NCBI GenBank assembly: GCA_026770025.1
Contig: JAMXDE010000067.1
Span: forward strand, 124,001 to 188,000
DNA from: Craspedostauros australis
Lineage: Eukaryota; Bacillariophyta; Bacillariophyceae; Mastogloiales; Achnanthaceae
Reading direction: 5' to 3'
Length of the DNA: 64,000 bases
A program made the translations under genes and the position numbers. Below are positions 1 through 8,587 of this stretch, piece by piece; position 1 is the first letter of the stretch; every line of letters begins with the position of its first letter. The notes under the pieces were generated by a model. It was not told where the DNA came from. It saw nothing but the letters and a program-made list of their open reading frames with translations, and ran no database searches.

Positions 1-3000
1 CACGATGTTCGCGAAGACAAAGTCCATACGTGGGAACATCTGTGCAATGATTTATTGTACACCATTTCATTGGGTCCGAGTGTACCCAATGGCGGCAAGG
101 CGAGAGGCCGCGCAGACACTCGATGAGCTATTCAGAGATTACGGCATCCCACACACAATGATACCAGACAATGCACGAGAGCTAGTTGAGGGCAACTTCA
201 AGAGCAAACTTCTCAAGGCTCAAGTCTCAATCCGTCCCGTGGAGGCGTATATTCACAACCAGAACAAAGCAGAGGCAACGATCCGAGAACTTCGACGTCA
301 ATATCGGCGACTCATGACATCGACGAACACACCTGCATACTTGTGGGATTATTGTTTTGAGTACTGTGCAGAAATTCGAAGCAACACAGCACTTCAGATA
401 TATGATCTACATGGCCAGACACCAACTACAATCCTAACTGGCGATACCACCGACATCTCACATATCTCAGAATTCGGGTGGTTCGACTTTGTGTGGTACA
501 TGAATCTCCAGGGAGCAAACATGAACACAAAACATCTTGGTCGCTACCTCGGTCCGTCAAAGGCCGTGGGTGAAGCGATGTGCTCGTACATTCTCACATC
601 TTCTGGCGCTGTTGTTTCTAAATCCTCTGTCATTCCTTTATCCGATGTCGACCTCAACAGTGAAGCAGTCAAACAGCAACAATCCGACTTCATGTCCAAT
701 CTACGAAATAAATGGAAAGATCGAATGGAAGGCATCAAGCCAGGGGACGACGGAGACGACGTCGACGACACAGCCGAAGACATTGCATTCCTGGAACAGA
801 CTACATCATTGGAACCTTTGATTGAGCCAGCTGACGCCGACGAAGACGCATACGATCGATACCTGTCTGCTCGAGTCAAGCTACCTGCGGGTGATGACAT
901 CCAATTTGGTACTGTGAAGCGCCGAAAACGCGATGCGAGCGGGAAGCTGATTGGTCACTCACATTCAAATCCACTTCTTGACACGTCCATGTATGAGGTT
1001 GAATTTGTCGACGGGCACAGCGAAGTGTTCAATGCGAATCAGATCGCGGAAAATATCTACGCACGAACAGATGACGACGGATACACGACACTCTTGATGG
1101 AGGACATCATTGACCATAAGCGACTCCCAACCGCAGCAACCACTGATGACAAGACGACCACGAAGACGACGAAGGGATGGAAGCTGTGTGTGTTATGGAA
1201 AGACGGATCTACATCATGGATTCATTTACGAGATGCCAAGGAGGCTGATCCTGTGAAGACAGCCGAATACGCAACCAACAACCAGCTCACCAATGAGCCT
1301 GCTTTTCGATGGTGGGTTCCATACACGATGAAGCGGCGCAACCGCATCCTGATGGCCAACCGCAAACGATACTTCCGACGAAATGAGAAATATGGTCTCG
1401 AACTACCGAAGAGCGTCCAACGTGCTCTTGCAATTGACGAGGAGACAGGAACCGACTTCTGGCGCAAAGCATTAGAGAAGGAGATGAAGAACGTTCGACC
1501 AGCATTCGACATCAAGACCGAAGACACGAAGCCACCAGTCGGATACACCTACATTGCATGTCACATGATCTTCGATATCAAAGTCGACCTCACACGGAAG
1601 GCACGACTTGTGGCAGGTGGTCACATGACTGAAGCACCATCCAGCATAACATATGCCAGTGTGGTGACACGCGAAAGCGTTCGAATCGCATTCCTCTTGG
1701 CGGCGCTGAACGACCTCGATGTGCTTGCGGCAGACGTGATGAACGCATACCTCAACGCGCCATGCCGCGAACGCGTCTACACAACATGTGGACCTGAGTT
1801 CGGGGCAGACGCAGGAAAGGTAGCGATAATCTGTCGCGCACTCTATGGGCTCAAATCAAGCGGCGCTGCCTGGAGGGCGCACCTTGCAGAGACACTGCAG
1901 AACTCACTCGGATTCACCTCGTGTCGTGCAGACAGCGATGTTTGGATGAAGCCAGCGGTGACGAGCGATGGGTCTGAATATTACGAGTACATCCTCGTGT
2001 ACACTGATGACATTCTGGCGATCTCCAAAGATCCCAGCGCGATACTCTCACACATTGGTTCTTACTTCTTTCTTAAACCCGCCTCGATCGGTCCACCAAC
2101 AACATACCTCGGCTCTACAATCGCTCCATTCCATCTCACAGCAGAACCGGAGCGGCCGAAGTGGAGCATGGGATCCCAGCGATACGTCCGAGAGGTCACG
2201 AAGATGGCACAGAAATGGCTTGAGGCCCGTGGCGGTAAATTCCGTACCAGCGCGAAAAGCGTGATACCAAACGGGTACCGACCAGAGCTTGACGCCACCA
2301 CCCTTTGTGATCCAGAGGAAATGAACTATTATCAACAGCTGATTGGGATCCTGAGGTGGATCGTCGAGTTGGGGCGGATCGACATATGCTGCGAGACAAG
2401 CATGATGTCTTCATACTGTGCTGCCCCCAGAACAGGGCATTTGCGTGTGCTTTTTTCATATGTTTGCCTATCTTAACTCACATGACCGATCACGTTTGGT
2501 GTTCGACGATGCATACGTCAAGAAGAACACCACTCCAACACCAGATTGGGCATCCTTCTACCCAGACGCACGCGAATTGATACCACATGACATGCCAAAA
2601 CCAAGAGGCAAAGCAGTCCAGATGACGTGTTTTGTTGATGCAGATCATGCAGGAGATCAATACACACGACGATCTCGAACAGGTGTTTTACTTTTCTTGA
2701 ATTCCTCACCCATCTTATGGTACAGCAAGAAGCAGAATGGAATCGAGACATCGACATTTGGTTCAGAATTCACAGCACTCAAGGTCGCCATGGAGATTGT
2801 GATTGGCATGAGATACAAGCTTCGAATGATGGGTGTGCCTTTGGAGGGACCGGCTGATATCCGAGTTGACAACCAGAGCGTCGTCTATAACGCATCCGCA
2901 CCCGAATCACAGCTGAGAAAGAAAGCCAACGCAATTGCATATCACTTTGTCCGAGAGAATGTGGCGGCAGGAGTGGCAGTCATCCAATATGAACCATCGG

Positions 3001-3080
3001 AGACCAACCTGGCTGACATGTTGACCAAGCCACAATCAGGTCCAAGACGACGAGAGCAATCACAACACATTCTATTTTGA
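1..3080 (+). pseudogene. pol: Copia pol remnant: integrase end, reverse transcriptase, RNase H
   Basis: Parts in order: integrase catalytic core and C-terminal region, an acidic linker, reverse transcriptase with the VYTDDIL active-site motif, and RNase H with the VDADHAG and VDNQSV motifs. It is a fossil that carries about one visible break plus a 5' end cut by the window edge, so it should not make a whole polyprotein. Similarity to the 23.6-27.5 kb pol gene is high at protein level, while silent positions differ widely, which suggests it is considerably older than that copy. Confidence 0.88.
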
Positions 3081-3276: not shown

Positions 3277-3881
3277 CAAGCAGATACGGACGTTATTACC
3301 GGTTATTTGAGCGTTAGACTGGGCACTTGCAGCTGAATCGTACGCAGCAGAGTAGAGACCACGTGAGAGGTAAATGGCTCGTGCCTTGAGCTCATAATCC
3401 GTTGTTTACTTCCAATTCCATGCCTTTTCCAGTAGGAGAGTTTGGCAGGACAAGCCACAACACGTCAAGAAGAACAAGCACACAAAGACATGTTGATGTC
3501 CGTTTCGTCGAAACCCAACGGAAAGGAGTGATTGGGTCGACGTGGTCAAACATGCACGTAGTGATCGATCGAGTCGATATGAGAATGTTGAAATCCCGAG
3601 TGACGTGTCGCGTGACTCGCATGCGTCACTTCAACCACCACCACCAAAACACGCAAAACAAGAGGAAAGATCGCACCACACATGATCTCCTCTGTTTCTG
3701 CAAATAGCAACATCAGCAACATCGCCATCATCAACACAACACATCATAAAAAGAGTAGCAGCTGACGGAGCGTTTGCAATCAGACTCGTCGATCTGTGCA
3801 TCAGAGGGAATCGCCAGCACAAGAGACAACAGGCAACAGAGAACAGAGAACGGATAACACAGAACGGAGCGGGAGGCCAAG
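3277..3881. other. Putative 3' LTR of the left Copia element, then upstream region of SELO
   Basis: The first part should be the 3' LTR of the left element (it begins CAAGCAG, like the CAAACAG start of the LTRs further right). I could not find its end because no second copy is in the window. The remainder is AT/CA-rich, holds no supported gene, and must contain the promoter and 5' UTR of the selenoprotein O gene. Confidence 0.4.
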
Positions 3882-6248
3882 GTGCATCAGATGCGCTTCA
3901 GTGGTTTCAACAGCAGAGGCGGAGCAGGAGCTGCGACTGCGTCGGCCACAGCTACAGCTACAGCTACAGCTGCAGCAACAGCAAGTCGGCGTTGGCACAT
4001 TCGATCAGCCGCGAGATCACCTTCGGCAGCCACCAGCGCATTCCTCTTTGCGTTGGCAGCAGCAGCGACCACATCGCCACCAACATCGACATCATCGGGG
4101 ACGCGCTCGTTCATGGCCAGCGCTTGGAACATGTCTTCTCAGCAGCAGAAGCAGCAGAGGATACCTCGCATCATTGGCATCTCCGACTGCAGTGCTGATG
4201 GCAGCACCACTGGTAGCACCACTGGAGGCAACGATGGCAACGCCGCAAGCAGCCCCTTGGCCTCCATCGTTCTGCGCAACTCGTGGATCGACCAGCTGTC
4301 GCCAGAGACGAAGGACAACTACGAACGATCCCTCAAAACGGAGCGCTTGTCCGCCACAGACAGCCGCGTCAACGTGAACAACCGAACCAAACGACCCATC
4401 TTCAACGGCCACTACGTCATCGTGCCTCCCACGGGCATCGCCAATCCAAAGCTGCTTCTGCACAGTCCCGATGTGGCCCACGATCTCCTCAAATTCACCA
4501 AGGATCAGATGGAGTCCCAGGACATGATCGACTGGTTGTCCGGCAATGCCGTGCTGGCCCAGGACACCACCTGGGCCACGCCCTACGCCCTCTCCATCAT
4601 GGGAACCCGCTACACCAGCAACTGTCCCTACGGAACGGGGAACGGCTACGGTGATGGACGCGCCGTTGCCATCGGTGAAGTGCAGGCGACCGATGAGACC
4701 GCCTTCGAGCTGCAGCTCAAGGGAGGAGGCAAGACGCCCTTCCATCGCGGTGCCGATGGACGTGCCGTGCTGCGATCCAGCATCCGCGAATTTCTCGCCA
4801 GCGAGGCCATGCACTACCTAGGCGTGCGCACCACCCGTGCGCTCTCCCTCGTCGTCAGCGTTAACGGTGACACGGTGCAGCGTCCATGGTACTCCGACTC
4901 GGCCCAGCTGCAGCTTCCCACCCTGGACGACCCGCGCCTGGCGAAGTACTCCATGGAGCAACGCAAGCAGTTGCTTCGGCAGCTGCGCACGCAGTCCAAG
5001 GCGGACCCCAACATCATGATCCGGGAACCATGCGCTATCACATGCCGGGTTGCCACGTCCTTCACGCGCATCGGCCACCTCGACCTCTTCGCGCGTCGCG
5101 TGCAGCAGCTCGCGGAGCTGGGTGGGACCTTCGGCGCCAAGAGCAGTGCGCCCCGCTACGACATCGCCACGAACGAATGGAAGGAACTGGAGCAGATCGT
5201 CTGGCACGCCTGCTTCCGCGAATTCAAGGCTGAGGCCTACGATCCCTTCATCGACAAGCAGGATATCGCAGGCGCCGCCACCAAGCTCATCGAGCTCTCC
5301 TCCGAGCGCATCGCCGACATGGTCACGGGCTGGGTCCGCGTCGGGTTCGCGCAGGGCAACTTCAACGCCGACAACTGTCTCGTCGGCGGCAGCACCATGG
5401 ACTACGGTCCCTTCGGATTCCTCGAGGAGTACTCACCGCTCTTCGCTAAGTGGACCGGCAGCGGGGAGCACTTCGGGTTCCTCAACCAGCCCAGCGCCGG
5501 CCTGGCCAATCTCCAGGTCCTCATCGAGAGCGTTGTGCCCGTCATTGTTGCCAAGGGCACAGACTACGAAAACGCCGAAAAGGACTACGATCATGTTGTG
5601 GAAAAGTTCGTGCAGTCCGCCCAGGTGCTGTTCCAGGAGCGTCTCGACACGGTCTTCCGCAACAAGATGGGATTGCCCGACGATGCCGACGTCGCAGATG
5701 ATCTCTGGGTATCCTTGGAGCCTCTGCTGCGCAAGTCACGCGTTGATTGGACCATCTTCTGGCGTCAGTTGACCTACGTCGCGAGGGATCTGGCAGCAAG
5801 CGAAGTCGACGGTGAACGTGACTACGAGGCCATGATGTCCCTTTTGGAAAACGGCAACAGCAGCAGCAGCAGCAATAACAACGACGAGGATGGCGTCTTC
5901 TATGAATCGCTGGATGATAGCATTCGCAGGGAGTGGTTGCATTGGTTGGAGCAGTGGAGCGATGTGCTGGATGGCATGGATCAATCCCCGCAGGAGGCCT
6001 ACGACCGAATGAAGACGACGAATCCCAAGTACGTGCTGCGCGAGTGGATGCTCGTTGATGCGTACACCACAGCAGCGCTGGATGAAACGGATGGTGAATT
6101 CGATACGACGGTGTTGAAGGAGCTCTTTGAACTCGTCCAACGTCCCTACGATGAAGGGACGGAATCAGAGCAATCCAAGTATTACCGGCGCGCGCCGGCG
6201 AGCGCACTGATGGCTGGTGGCACAGCCTTCATGAGCTGATCCAGTTAA
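3882..6248 (+). CDS. SELO: Selenoprotein O (SelO/YdiU family protein AMPylator), Sec-encoding
   Basis: Pseudokinase-fold enzyme that transfers AMP from ATP to Ser/Thr/Tyr of target proteins, usually in mitochondria, with a redox role. Family blocks are clear: QLKGGGKTPFHRGADGRAVL at about residues 285-304, the REFLASEAMHYLG stretch after it, and NFNADNCLVGGSTMDYGPFG near residue 500, which holds metal and active-site residues. The Ala/Arg-rich first ~70 residues suit a mitochondrial leader. The frame reaches TGA at 6237-6239, but the next codons are TCC AGT TAA. Read as selenocysteine, the protein ends M-S-U-S-S (788 aa), matching animal SelO, where Sec is third from the end. I therefore place the stop at 6246-6248. 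If TGA is a true stop, the protein is 785 aa and lacks its redox residue. A small internal Ser/Asn repeat occurs near residue 660. Confidence 0.93.
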
Positions 6249-7141
6249 GCGGGTTGGCGGCTGGTAGTCCGTTCGGTGCATTCGGTGCTTGTGTCGACAA
6301 GATCAACACCACCACCAATGGATTGCAAACGAGATGATTTAGGCATTGGCAACCATGTAGGTACGTGATTGCTTGGGGGGCTGCGATGGAACCTTGCGGT
6401 ATCCACTGCCCACCGTTGCTGCTGCCATTGCCGTCCTACTTCATTTCGTGATTCAAAGCCGCTGCTCGTGAAGATACAAAACAACATTCCACAGGAACAG
6501 AGAAAGAAAAGGAAGAGGAATGACATAAGAACCACATCCTGGGCTTCTCCTGAATGGGAATGGAACCTCGGGGACGCGATGATTGATTGAGATTGACTCG
6601 TAAGCGCGTGAATGATGGCTGGGGGATCGACTCTTGATTGGATTGGATTGGATTGGACTGAATTTGGTGTGGTGTGGCATACAACATGCACTACATCGTA
6701 GCAGACTCTCCAGATATTCCAAGACACGACGAGAGGCGATCCCCGGCTTGACAATAATACGACACGAGTCGGTGGGATGTTGCTTGAGCCGCCCATCTGT
6801 GCTGCGTTTGATCTGCTCGATCGTCTCATGGTTGCTTGTACGAAATGGACAAGACGATCAGGGATGAGACATCCCATGGGTGAAGAGCAAAGGCAACGCA
6901 CAGACACGGACACGGGGCAACGACAACCCAAGATTGATGGATCATGGAGATCCCTAACCACTATTCTACATAAATATGCACAACGAATGATACTTGAAAG
7001 AGCTTTTGCCGAGCACTAGTTATGATCCCGGCAATGGTTCAATGTTTCAATGATGCCATGCGGCGAGTGATCGTTCGCATCAAAAGTTAAAGTAGAGCAA
7101 AGTGGATAAATTAAAATAAGAAGGTCGCGTTGATGTTGCGT
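6249..7141. other. Intergenic region between SELO and a convergent gene
   Basis: Holds the 3' UTRs of two converging genes. A short (GATTG)n run lies at about 6634-6657. Apart from the SECIS candidate I see no gene. Confidence 0.6.
6320..6385 (+). promoter_or_regulatory. Candidate SECIS element in SELO 3' UTR
   Basis: About 95 bases after the TGA there is an ATGA (6334-6337), an AA pair (6351-6352) and a TGAT (6366-6369), with 13 bases on each side of the AA. This is the spacing expected of a eukaryotic SECIS core (AUGA, apical AA, GA). A short stem GCAT/ATGT (6343-6346 with 6355-6358) closes an 8-base loop holding the AA, and CAA..CG below the core can pair with TGCTTG (6370-6375). The middle of the upper helix pairs poorly by eye, so this is only a candidate; the real element could be elsewhere before 7080. 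Confidence 0.32.
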
Positions 7142-8587
7142 TTAGGCGGTGACTTTCTTTGATCCCTTGACCTTTGGCTTGGGTGCCGCTCCCAGGTACT
7201 CCTCTGGCATTACGGAGGAATGGTGATGAGAGATCTTCCACTCTCCATCCTCGAAGACGTAGACGAAGCTGTATCTCGCGAGAACCTTGGATCCGTCCGC
7301 CCCCATCGTGAACTCGTAGATTCCGGCATCCTGAGCCCAGTTCTTGCCGATCATGATGTTGCTCTCGACGATCCTTCCCATCGGCGCTTTCTTGAGGAAG
7401 GCGACGAAATAATCCTCGATGAGAGCGGCATCGGTGCGTGGCACGTCGCTGACGGTTGGTAGGAGAACTGCGTTCTTGCTGTACCTCTGGGCAACCTTCT
7501 TTGGATCGCCGGAGGCGAGGGCGGCATTCCAGAGCTGGAACAGGTTCTTCACCTGCGACTCCTCGATGGTCTTGAAGGAGGGGATGCCCTCCGGCATGAC
7601 AGAGGAGTGGTGCTGGCTGATCTTCCACTGGCCTTCCTCAAACACGTAGATGAAGGTGTAGCGACCCTTGACCTTGGAGCCATCGACGCCCATGGTGAAC
7701 TCGTAGATTCCGGCATCCTGGGCCCAGTTGGTGCCCACGATCACGTTGCTCTCGAGGATCTCGCCCTGCGGCTTCTTGAGGAGGAAGGCGTCGAAGTAAT
7801 CCTTGATGAGGGCGTAGTCCGTGCGTGGAACATCGGAGACGGTTGGAAGGAGGACCGCGTTCTTGGAGTAGCGGCTGGCCACGGCGTCGGAATCGAGAGT
7901 GGCGAGGGCGTCGTTCCAGAGGTGGAAGAGATTGCGGGCGCGCTCCGGTGTCATGCTCTGTGCGAGGTCAATTCCCTCCGGCATGATGGAGGAATGGTGG
8001 TGGCTGATCTTCCACTGGCCGTTCTCGTAGACGTAAACGAAGGAGTAGCGAGCCTGGACCTTTGATCCATCGGCACCCAGAGTGAACTCGTAGATGCCGC
8101 AATCGGAGGCCCAGTTGTGTCCGATCTTGATGTTTCCCTCGACGATCTCGCCCTGGGGCTTCTTGAGGAGGAAGGAGTCGAAGTAGTTCTTGATGCTTTC
8201 TGCGTCCTTGCGTGGGGTATCCGAGACGGTTGGCAGCAGCACCGGCTCCGCAGCGTAGCGTTTCGTAACGATTCCAGAGTCTCCGGTGGCCAAAGCGTTG
8301 TTCCAGAGGTTGAAGAGGTCGCGAACCTCGGTCTCGGTGATCGGCTGTGCGCCGGCTGGGGCTCCGTTCTCGCCAGAGCTGCCAGACGTGGACTTGTCCT
8401 TGTTGTTGTTGAAGAGACCGAACAGGCCCAGCTGGGTAGTGCTTTGGATGCTGCTCTGAACTGCTGCTGGATGGCTTGGAGCGGCGCAGAAGGCGGCTCT
8501 GCTGGAAGTGGACGCCGACGATGGTGCGAAGGCTGCTGCTCCGCTAGCGGAAGCAACAATGACGATTGCCAAGTTGGAGATCTTCAT
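7142..8587 (-). CDS. Plastid-targeted protein with three tandem NTF2-like (CaMKII-association/SgcJ-type) domains, copy A
   Basis: 481 aa. The N terminus is a signal peptide ending GAAAFAP (about residues 16-22), the diatom bipartite plastid-targeting signature, followed by a Ser/Ala-rich transit stretch. Then come three near-identical domains of about 129 residues starting near 83, 212 and 341. Each begins with a helix of the form VxxLFxLWNxALAxxD, continues with LLPTVSDxPR and ends with ARYSFVYVYExGxWKISHHHSS. This is the layout of the NTF2/DUF4440 fold seen in CaMKII association domains and SgcJ/EcaC proteins. Those proteins oligomerise or bind small molecules; catalysis cannot be read here. 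The very high similarity between domains suggests recent internal duplication or gene conversion. A close paralogue lies at 13365-14858 on the same strand. Function in the plastid unknown. Confidence 0.85.
   Translation of the reverse strand: MKISNLAIVIVASASGAAAFAPSSASTSSRAAFCAAPSHPAAVQSSIQSTTQLGLFGLFNNNKDKSTSGSSGENGAPAGAQPITETEVRDLFNLWNNALATGDSGIVTKRYAAEPVLLPTVSDTPRKDAESIKNYFDSFLLKKPQGEIVEGNIKIGHNWASDCGIYEFTLGADGSKVQARYSFVYVYENGQWKISHHHSSIMPEGIDLAQSMTPERARNLFHLWNDALATLDSDAVASRYSKNAVLLPTVSDVPRTDYALIKDYFDAFLLKKPQGEILESNVIVGTNWAQDAGIYEFTMGVDGSKVKGRYTFIYVFEEGQWKISQHHSSVMPEGIPSFKTIEESQVKNLFQLWNAALASGDPKKVAQRYSKNAVLLPTVSDVPRTDAALIEDYFVAFLKKAPMGRIVESNIMIGKNWAQDAGIYEFTMGADGSKVLARYSFVYVFEDGEWKISHHHSSVMPEEYLGAAPKPKVKGSKKVTA

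Follow-up and report, generated by a model that had tools for sequence, protein, structure and literature searches.

AMPylation activity has been described for the SelO family (PMC12409994), and in the E. coli protein the C-terminal Cys476 bonds the activation-loop Cys272 (PMC7278666). A marine picoeukaryote branch of SelO, which includes the diatoms Thalassiosira and Phaeodactylum together with Aureococcus, Ostreococcus, Micromonas and Ectocarpus, usually ends in U-x-x-stop according to the passages of PMC3281104 that we drew on. Sec-containing SelO had been reported in 2007 from Ostreococcus and a red alga, and in the excerpts of that study used here the SelO of T. pseudonana is only partial, with the Sec region missing (PMC2375036). 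Between 20 and 44 selenoprotein genes are given per diatom, and SELENOO is listed among the algal families (PMC7539508). The accounts do not all agree: in the portions at hand, PMC7278666 places Cys instead of Sec in SelO of lower eukaryotes, which does not agree with PMC3281104.

We analyzed a SelO gene of the diatom Craspedostauros australis located in a 64,000-nucleotide stretch of genomic DNA, the whole of which is referred to here as the window. The encoded protein resembles the algal and diatom SelO proteins of PMC3281104 in having a SelO domain and a U-x-x-stop ending, a likeness drawn from the description in that paper. Human SELENOO, as printed there (CVTUSS-stop), likewise carries Sec as its third-last residue, with Ser-Ser behind it; it differs from the window protein, which would end FMSUSS and has no C-x-x-U pair. 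The window SelO is ordinary for algae, and diatom SelO proteins ending U-x-x-stop are already in print (PMC3281104). What the window adds is a SelO complete through its Sec-type C terminus, a part that the diatom study of 2007 did not have (PMC2375036).

The product would have a pseudokinase fold and would AMPylate other proteins, an activity assigned from its family. In the mechanism that we propose, the eukaryotic Sec machinery would insert selenocysteine as the third-last residue at TGA 6237-6239, insertion would be directed by a SECIS in the 3' untranslated region (UTR), for which the 6595-6770 hairpin is the likeliest candidate, and translation would end at TAA 6246-6248. We put the probability of this reading at roughly 95%.

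The SelO gene and its C terminus

The stop-to-stop frame 3858-6239 on the forward strand is open for 793 codons and closes at TGA 6237-6239; its first ATG is at 3891. The frame product contains the SelO domain PF02696 (E 2.1e-63; 215.2 bits against a gathering cut-off of 22.8), and it also matches four PDB sequences that bear the name SelO or YdiU, with E values from 1.2e-39 to 1.1e-32. Structures such as 6iii are of E. coli SelO/YdiU. A search of the genome (74.8 Mb, 90 contigs) revealed a single SelO gene, matched in two neighboring pieces that both lie in frame 3858-6239. Direct reading of the sequence gives TCC (6240-6242), AGT (6243-6245) and TAA (6246-6248) in frame after the TGA, exactly the two Ser codons and stop that the earlier note had read. 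With TGA taken as Sec, Sec783 would be the third-last residue. The features of the locus are listed in Table 1.

Table 1. Coordinates of the SelO gene and associated features in the window
Feature	Position	Strand	Remarks
SelO coding region, ATG to TAA	3891..6248	+	785 residues with TGA as selenocysteine
Cys496 codon (NFNADNC), candidate redox partner of Sec783	5376..5378	+	Cys common to all 80 relatives
TGA, proposed selenocysteine codon, residue 783	6237..6239	+	Aligned with Cys in 80/80 relatives and 8/8 bacterial SelO from plasmid records
TCC AGT TAA, two Ser codons and proposed true stop	6240..6248	+	Equals C-S-S-stop of relatives
SECIS-like element	6595..6770	+	Helix I 6595-6601/6764-6770; helix II 6617-6629/6737-6748, enclosing a long apical stem
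GAATGAT, 5' side of proposed SECIS core	6610..6616	+	GAATGAC in the 7 control genes
TGAC, 3' side of proposed SECIS core	6749..6752	+	

The C terminus was compared with bacterial Cys forms of SelO. A tblastn search of a plasmid collection matched 96 records, and the SelO proteins of 8 of them were read: three end C-S-S and five C-G-T, with the stop directly after. The best plasmid-borne match, the SelO of Leptolyngbya, can be aligned as far as the window residue directly ahead of the TGA; its ending is YYSCSS, compared with FMS-TGA-SS in the window protein. No relatives were found when bacterial and archaeal genomes were scanned with the window protein alone. The scan from the window/Leptolyngbya alignment, with Leptolyngbya first, matched at least 593 stretches, at least 562 of which encode a relative. 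The best 80 of the 562 were kept, ranked by their match to the Leptolyngbya protein and not to the window protein, and all 80 end S-C-S-S-stop. By their record titles, these are mostly cyanobacteria, Desulfobulbales/Desulfobacterales and marine gammaproteobacteria.

Leptolyngbya sp. BL0902 SelO and the 80 relatives show 38-42% identity to the window protein in the alignments (36.4% for Leptolyngbya by tblastn). These cyanobacterial-type proteins share with it the NFNxDNC motif and the S-[Cys/TGA]-S-S-stop ending and differ from it in having Cys in place of the TGA. E. coli SelO/YdiU (L028), of the same family, also ends C-S-S and is 26.5% identical to the window protein. Cys was thus found at the aligned position in all 88 sequences read (80 from the genome scan and 8 bacterial from plasmid records), placing the window TGA exactly at the family Cys position, and TGA-TCC-AGT-TAA aligns with C-S-S-stop to give the [Cys/Sec]-x-x-stop ending of SelO proteins. 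The notion that U-S-S-stop fits the SelO family is supported. Relatives with a different residue and a stop at the TGA position, named in the earlier note as evidence that would count against recoding, were not seen among these 88 sequences from outside the eukaryotes. Automatic annotation would truncate the protein just ahead of a position occupied by Cys in all the relatives read.

Selenocysteine machinery and other in-frame TGA codons

The genome contains a tRNA-Sec (76.6 bits, anticodon TCA), SepSecS (E 9.7e-70), an SPS2 gene that itself has one in-frame TGA (E 2.8e-61; context SDLKG-TGA-ACKI) and eEFSec, whose best PDB matches are eEFSec chains (E 4.1e-113) and which contains the domains PF21208 and PF21131 (euk_SelB_III, eEFSec_4th). 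The PSTK candidate is weak, with 24.9 bits in the genome search and 45.7 bits to TIGR03574, both under the cut-offs. Of the full Sec machinery that recoding had been said to imply, a large part was recovered: tRNA-Sec, SepSecS, SPS2 and eEFSec, with PSTK weakly represented, alongside other genes with in-frame TGA. By its gene content, the organism appears able to insert Sec.

In-frame TGA codons also occur in genes for SelT, two glutathione peroxidases (GPx), SelM, a Sep15/SelM-like protein, MsrA and PDI-like proteins, at the Sec sites of these families. Two near-identical PDI-like genes (L138 and L142, contig C6) both read RQG-TGA-GYC; the L142 copy also carries a TAG, and its frame is broken, so that it looks like a decayed duplicate. 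We also noted a second MsrA gene on the reverse strand of L152, which reads ALG-TGA-FW, with the TGA (position 1370 when the locus is reversed) standing for the active-site Cys. It is apparently split by an intron and has a SECIS-like site at position 2069 in the same numbering.

A candidate SECIS in the SelO 3' flank

The Rfam SECIS_1 model (RF00031) gave no match in 6200-7300 at E values up to 10, none in 6950-7110 and none genome-wide among the 133 candidates scored. We hold this null to be uninformative because the same library, in a 161-base search, also missed the clear SECIS of SPS2, an element complete by textbook standards, with helix I, ATGAC, a helix II of 8-9 bp, AAC at the apex, a mini-stem and CGAA. 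Since Rfam was blind to this element, the Sec genes of the genome itself were taken as the guide. A strict SECISearch-like pattern (NTGA, 9-14 nt, AA or CC, 13-45 nt, GA) was run on five control genes and SelO. SPS2 was outstanding at -28.8 kcal/mol, SelM gave -12.3 at a place other than its GAATGAC, the GPx gene on C7 gave -8.5, nothing was found in SelT or the GPx gene on C1, and SelO gave -4.9. The scan was set aside as too strict for this genome. A two-helix scan without a sequence anchor was also rejected, as it failed to distinguish Sec genes from 26 flanks whose genes were presumed to be non-Sec, the best of which scored down to -26.3; the 26 are 31 loci minus 5 that were too short, and they include L152, later recognized as a likely Sec gene.

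After this anchor-free scan had failed, an anchor derived from the control genes, GAATGA, was applied to SelO. Of 11 matches with in-frame TGA, 7 served as controls (SelT, GPx on C1, GPx on C7, SPS2, SelM, PDI-like and MsrA; loci L013, L016, L017, L023, L024, L138 and L149). Four were dropped: L025, where the gene end behind an intron was not located; L140, where the TGA is at the edge of the match and the gene end unclear; L142, the decayed PDI-like near-copy; and one match without a locus. GAATGAC was present within 475 nt of the stop in all seven control flanks, compared with 0.045 expected per 900 nt (from 23 occurrences in 461,992 bases of other sequence, both strands), and may serve as a simple SECIS core signature for this genome. 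All seven control sites passed the two-helix test, with only SPS2 outstanding by z (-6.0), the remaining six lying between -0.13 and -1.94.

The SelO 3' flank contains three GAATGA[C/T] sites, at 6518, 6610 and 6985. Only the site at 6610 passed the two-helix test (z, -4.8); GAATGAC 6518 and GAATGAT 6985 were rejected as SECIS cores, as they had weak partners only and formed no two-helix structure. Helix I of the 6595-6770 element pairs GACTCGT with ACGAGTC, and helix II, of 12 bp with one bulge, encloses a long stem. The minimum free energy (MFE) of 6590-6770 is -67.4 kcal/mol (z, -4.92), and none of 200 shuffles was as low. Pair probabilities in this segment are at least 0.9 for helix I and above 0.9 for 8 of the 12 pairs of helix II, the other four lying between 0.24 and 0.77. 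The MFE structures of 6580-6790 (10-20 nt added per side) and of 6540-6820 lack helix I as well as the lower part of helix II. Neither AA nor CC follows the core of the element at a distance of 10-13 nt, the core has T instead of C, and the insert is 132 nt long, where PMC2375036 permitted an AA-to-GA distance of 15-39 nt. These features count against the element. Long mini-stems are described for Ostreococcus SECIS elements in the parts of PMC2375036 that we used.

No core-preserving shuffle (0/1200) reached the -70.6 kcal/mol of the 6610 site (lowest, -70.0). The two-helix test itself was passed by 53/400, 104/400 and 20/400 core-preserving shuffles at the three SelO sites, so that only the energy of the SelO site is rare. 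As a background set we used 64 GAATGA[C/T] sites from both strands of loci retrieved from this genome, some of them overlapping; 16 loci that contain SelO or TGA-bearing genes were excluded together with what surrounds them. Five of the 64 passed the two-helix test, none with a z as low as that of the SelO site. Those passing include L152, the strongest (z, -3.57), and L133/L143, which are one site seen twice. The L152 site is probably real, because upstream of it lies an MsrA-family exon, and the exon preceding that one reads ALG-TGA-FW, the MsrA active site in its Sec form; searching the intended background for GAATGA[C/T] thus exposed one more likely Sec-MsrA gene. By an earlier anchored energy score, the SelO site (-25.45) was bettered by 2 of the 64 background sites (-27.94 and -27.15).

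The earlier note had made its reading depend on a SECIS in the 3' UTR. The 6595-6770 hairpin in the 3' flank is a SECIS-like candidate for it, though not in textbook form and with no Rfam match. Given that Sec is decoded here, we think that it is probably the working SECIS, a view held with less confidence because a competing fold appears already in 6580-6790. There is a lesser but substantial chance, as a variant of the same explanation, that the TGA encodes Sec and the working SECIS lies elsewhere in the 3' flank, either in an unrecognized element or in a hairpin in which ATGA 7022-7025 faces CGAG or TGAT near 7067-7071, giving an ATGA/TGAT core. The lack of AA in the 6595-6770 element and the loss of its helix I in slightly longer folds speak for this variant, but the 7022 hairpin is weak (-8.9 kcal/mol) and its helix II bulged, and in the same scan 9 of the 26 flanks taken as non-Sec (one of them L152, the likely Sec gene) scored as low or lower.

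Selenocysteine codon or stop

The TGA could instead be an ordinary stop, the last three residues having been lost and Ser-Ser-TAA surviving as a fossil or by chance. The standard open reading frame does close at this TGA, the SECIS candidate departs from the textbook form, and a recent loss could still leave the Ser-Ser-TAA codons in place. Against this, the tail after the TGA matches the C-S-S-stop ending of all 80 relatives (the best 80 of 562), Ser, Ser and stop would follow by chance with a probability of about 2.0e-4 given the triplets that make up the 3' flank, and the genome has Sec machinery and several other genes with in-frame TGA. We regard an ordinary stop as very improbable. Several conserved genes with in-frame TGA would also be expected if TGA were a sense codon throughout this nuclear genome, but most family matches have no TGA (4 of 43 thioredoxin-domain matches do) and the sole tRNA with a TCA anticodon, from the four loci scanned, is tRNA-Sec, which makes that idea barely credible. 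Decoding as Sec, which the earlier note had deduced for this species, is supported by the Cys at the TGA position in relatives, the Sec machinery genes and the SECIS-like hairpin, all of them read from sequence.

Candidate redox partners of Sec783

Sec783 may take the redox role that the C-terminal Cys plays in the bacterial proteins. A Cys in the activation loop, as at E. coli Cys272, was found in two of nine aligned proteins (E. coli and Methylococcus) and in neither the window protein nor Leptolyngbya; it occurs in part of the SelO family only and hence does not define it. The 80 relatives all have Cys at window positions 245, 487, 496, 511 and 783, and 79 of them have Cys at 285. Of these shared residues the window protein keeps only Cys245 and Cys496, with the TGA at 783; three further Cys of the cyanobacterial-type proteins correspond to His285, Ala487 and Leu511 in it. 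The partner of Sec783 could most readily be Cys496, which lies in the NFNADNC loop, or Cys245. Structure prediction (mean pLDDT, 56.9; pTM, 0.52; residues 774-785 below 50) gave nothing on the Sec783 partner.

We tentatively suggest, as a reading less likely than not, a lineage-specific form of SECIS with an extended 5' core, GAATGAC or GAATGAT, an AA at the apex that frequently cannot be made out, and a third helix of possibly more than 100 nt, which standard models miss, together with a SelO whose Sec might pair with Cys496 or Cys245 and not with an activation-loop Cys.

Neighboring sequences

The gene convergent with SelO (7142-8587, reverse strand) encodes three CaMKII_AD/SnoaL-like domains, and the N terminus of its product, ASGAAAFAPSS, resembles a diatom plastid-targeting peptide. 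The region 2-3080 on the forward strand is retrotransposon-like: frame 2-2476 matches the RVT_2 reverse transcriptase (E 1.1e-16) and is overlapped by frame 2406-3080 on the same strand. Elsewhere in the genome, four consecutive frames on one contig are presumably rps12, rps7, tufA and rps10, in the red-lineage order.
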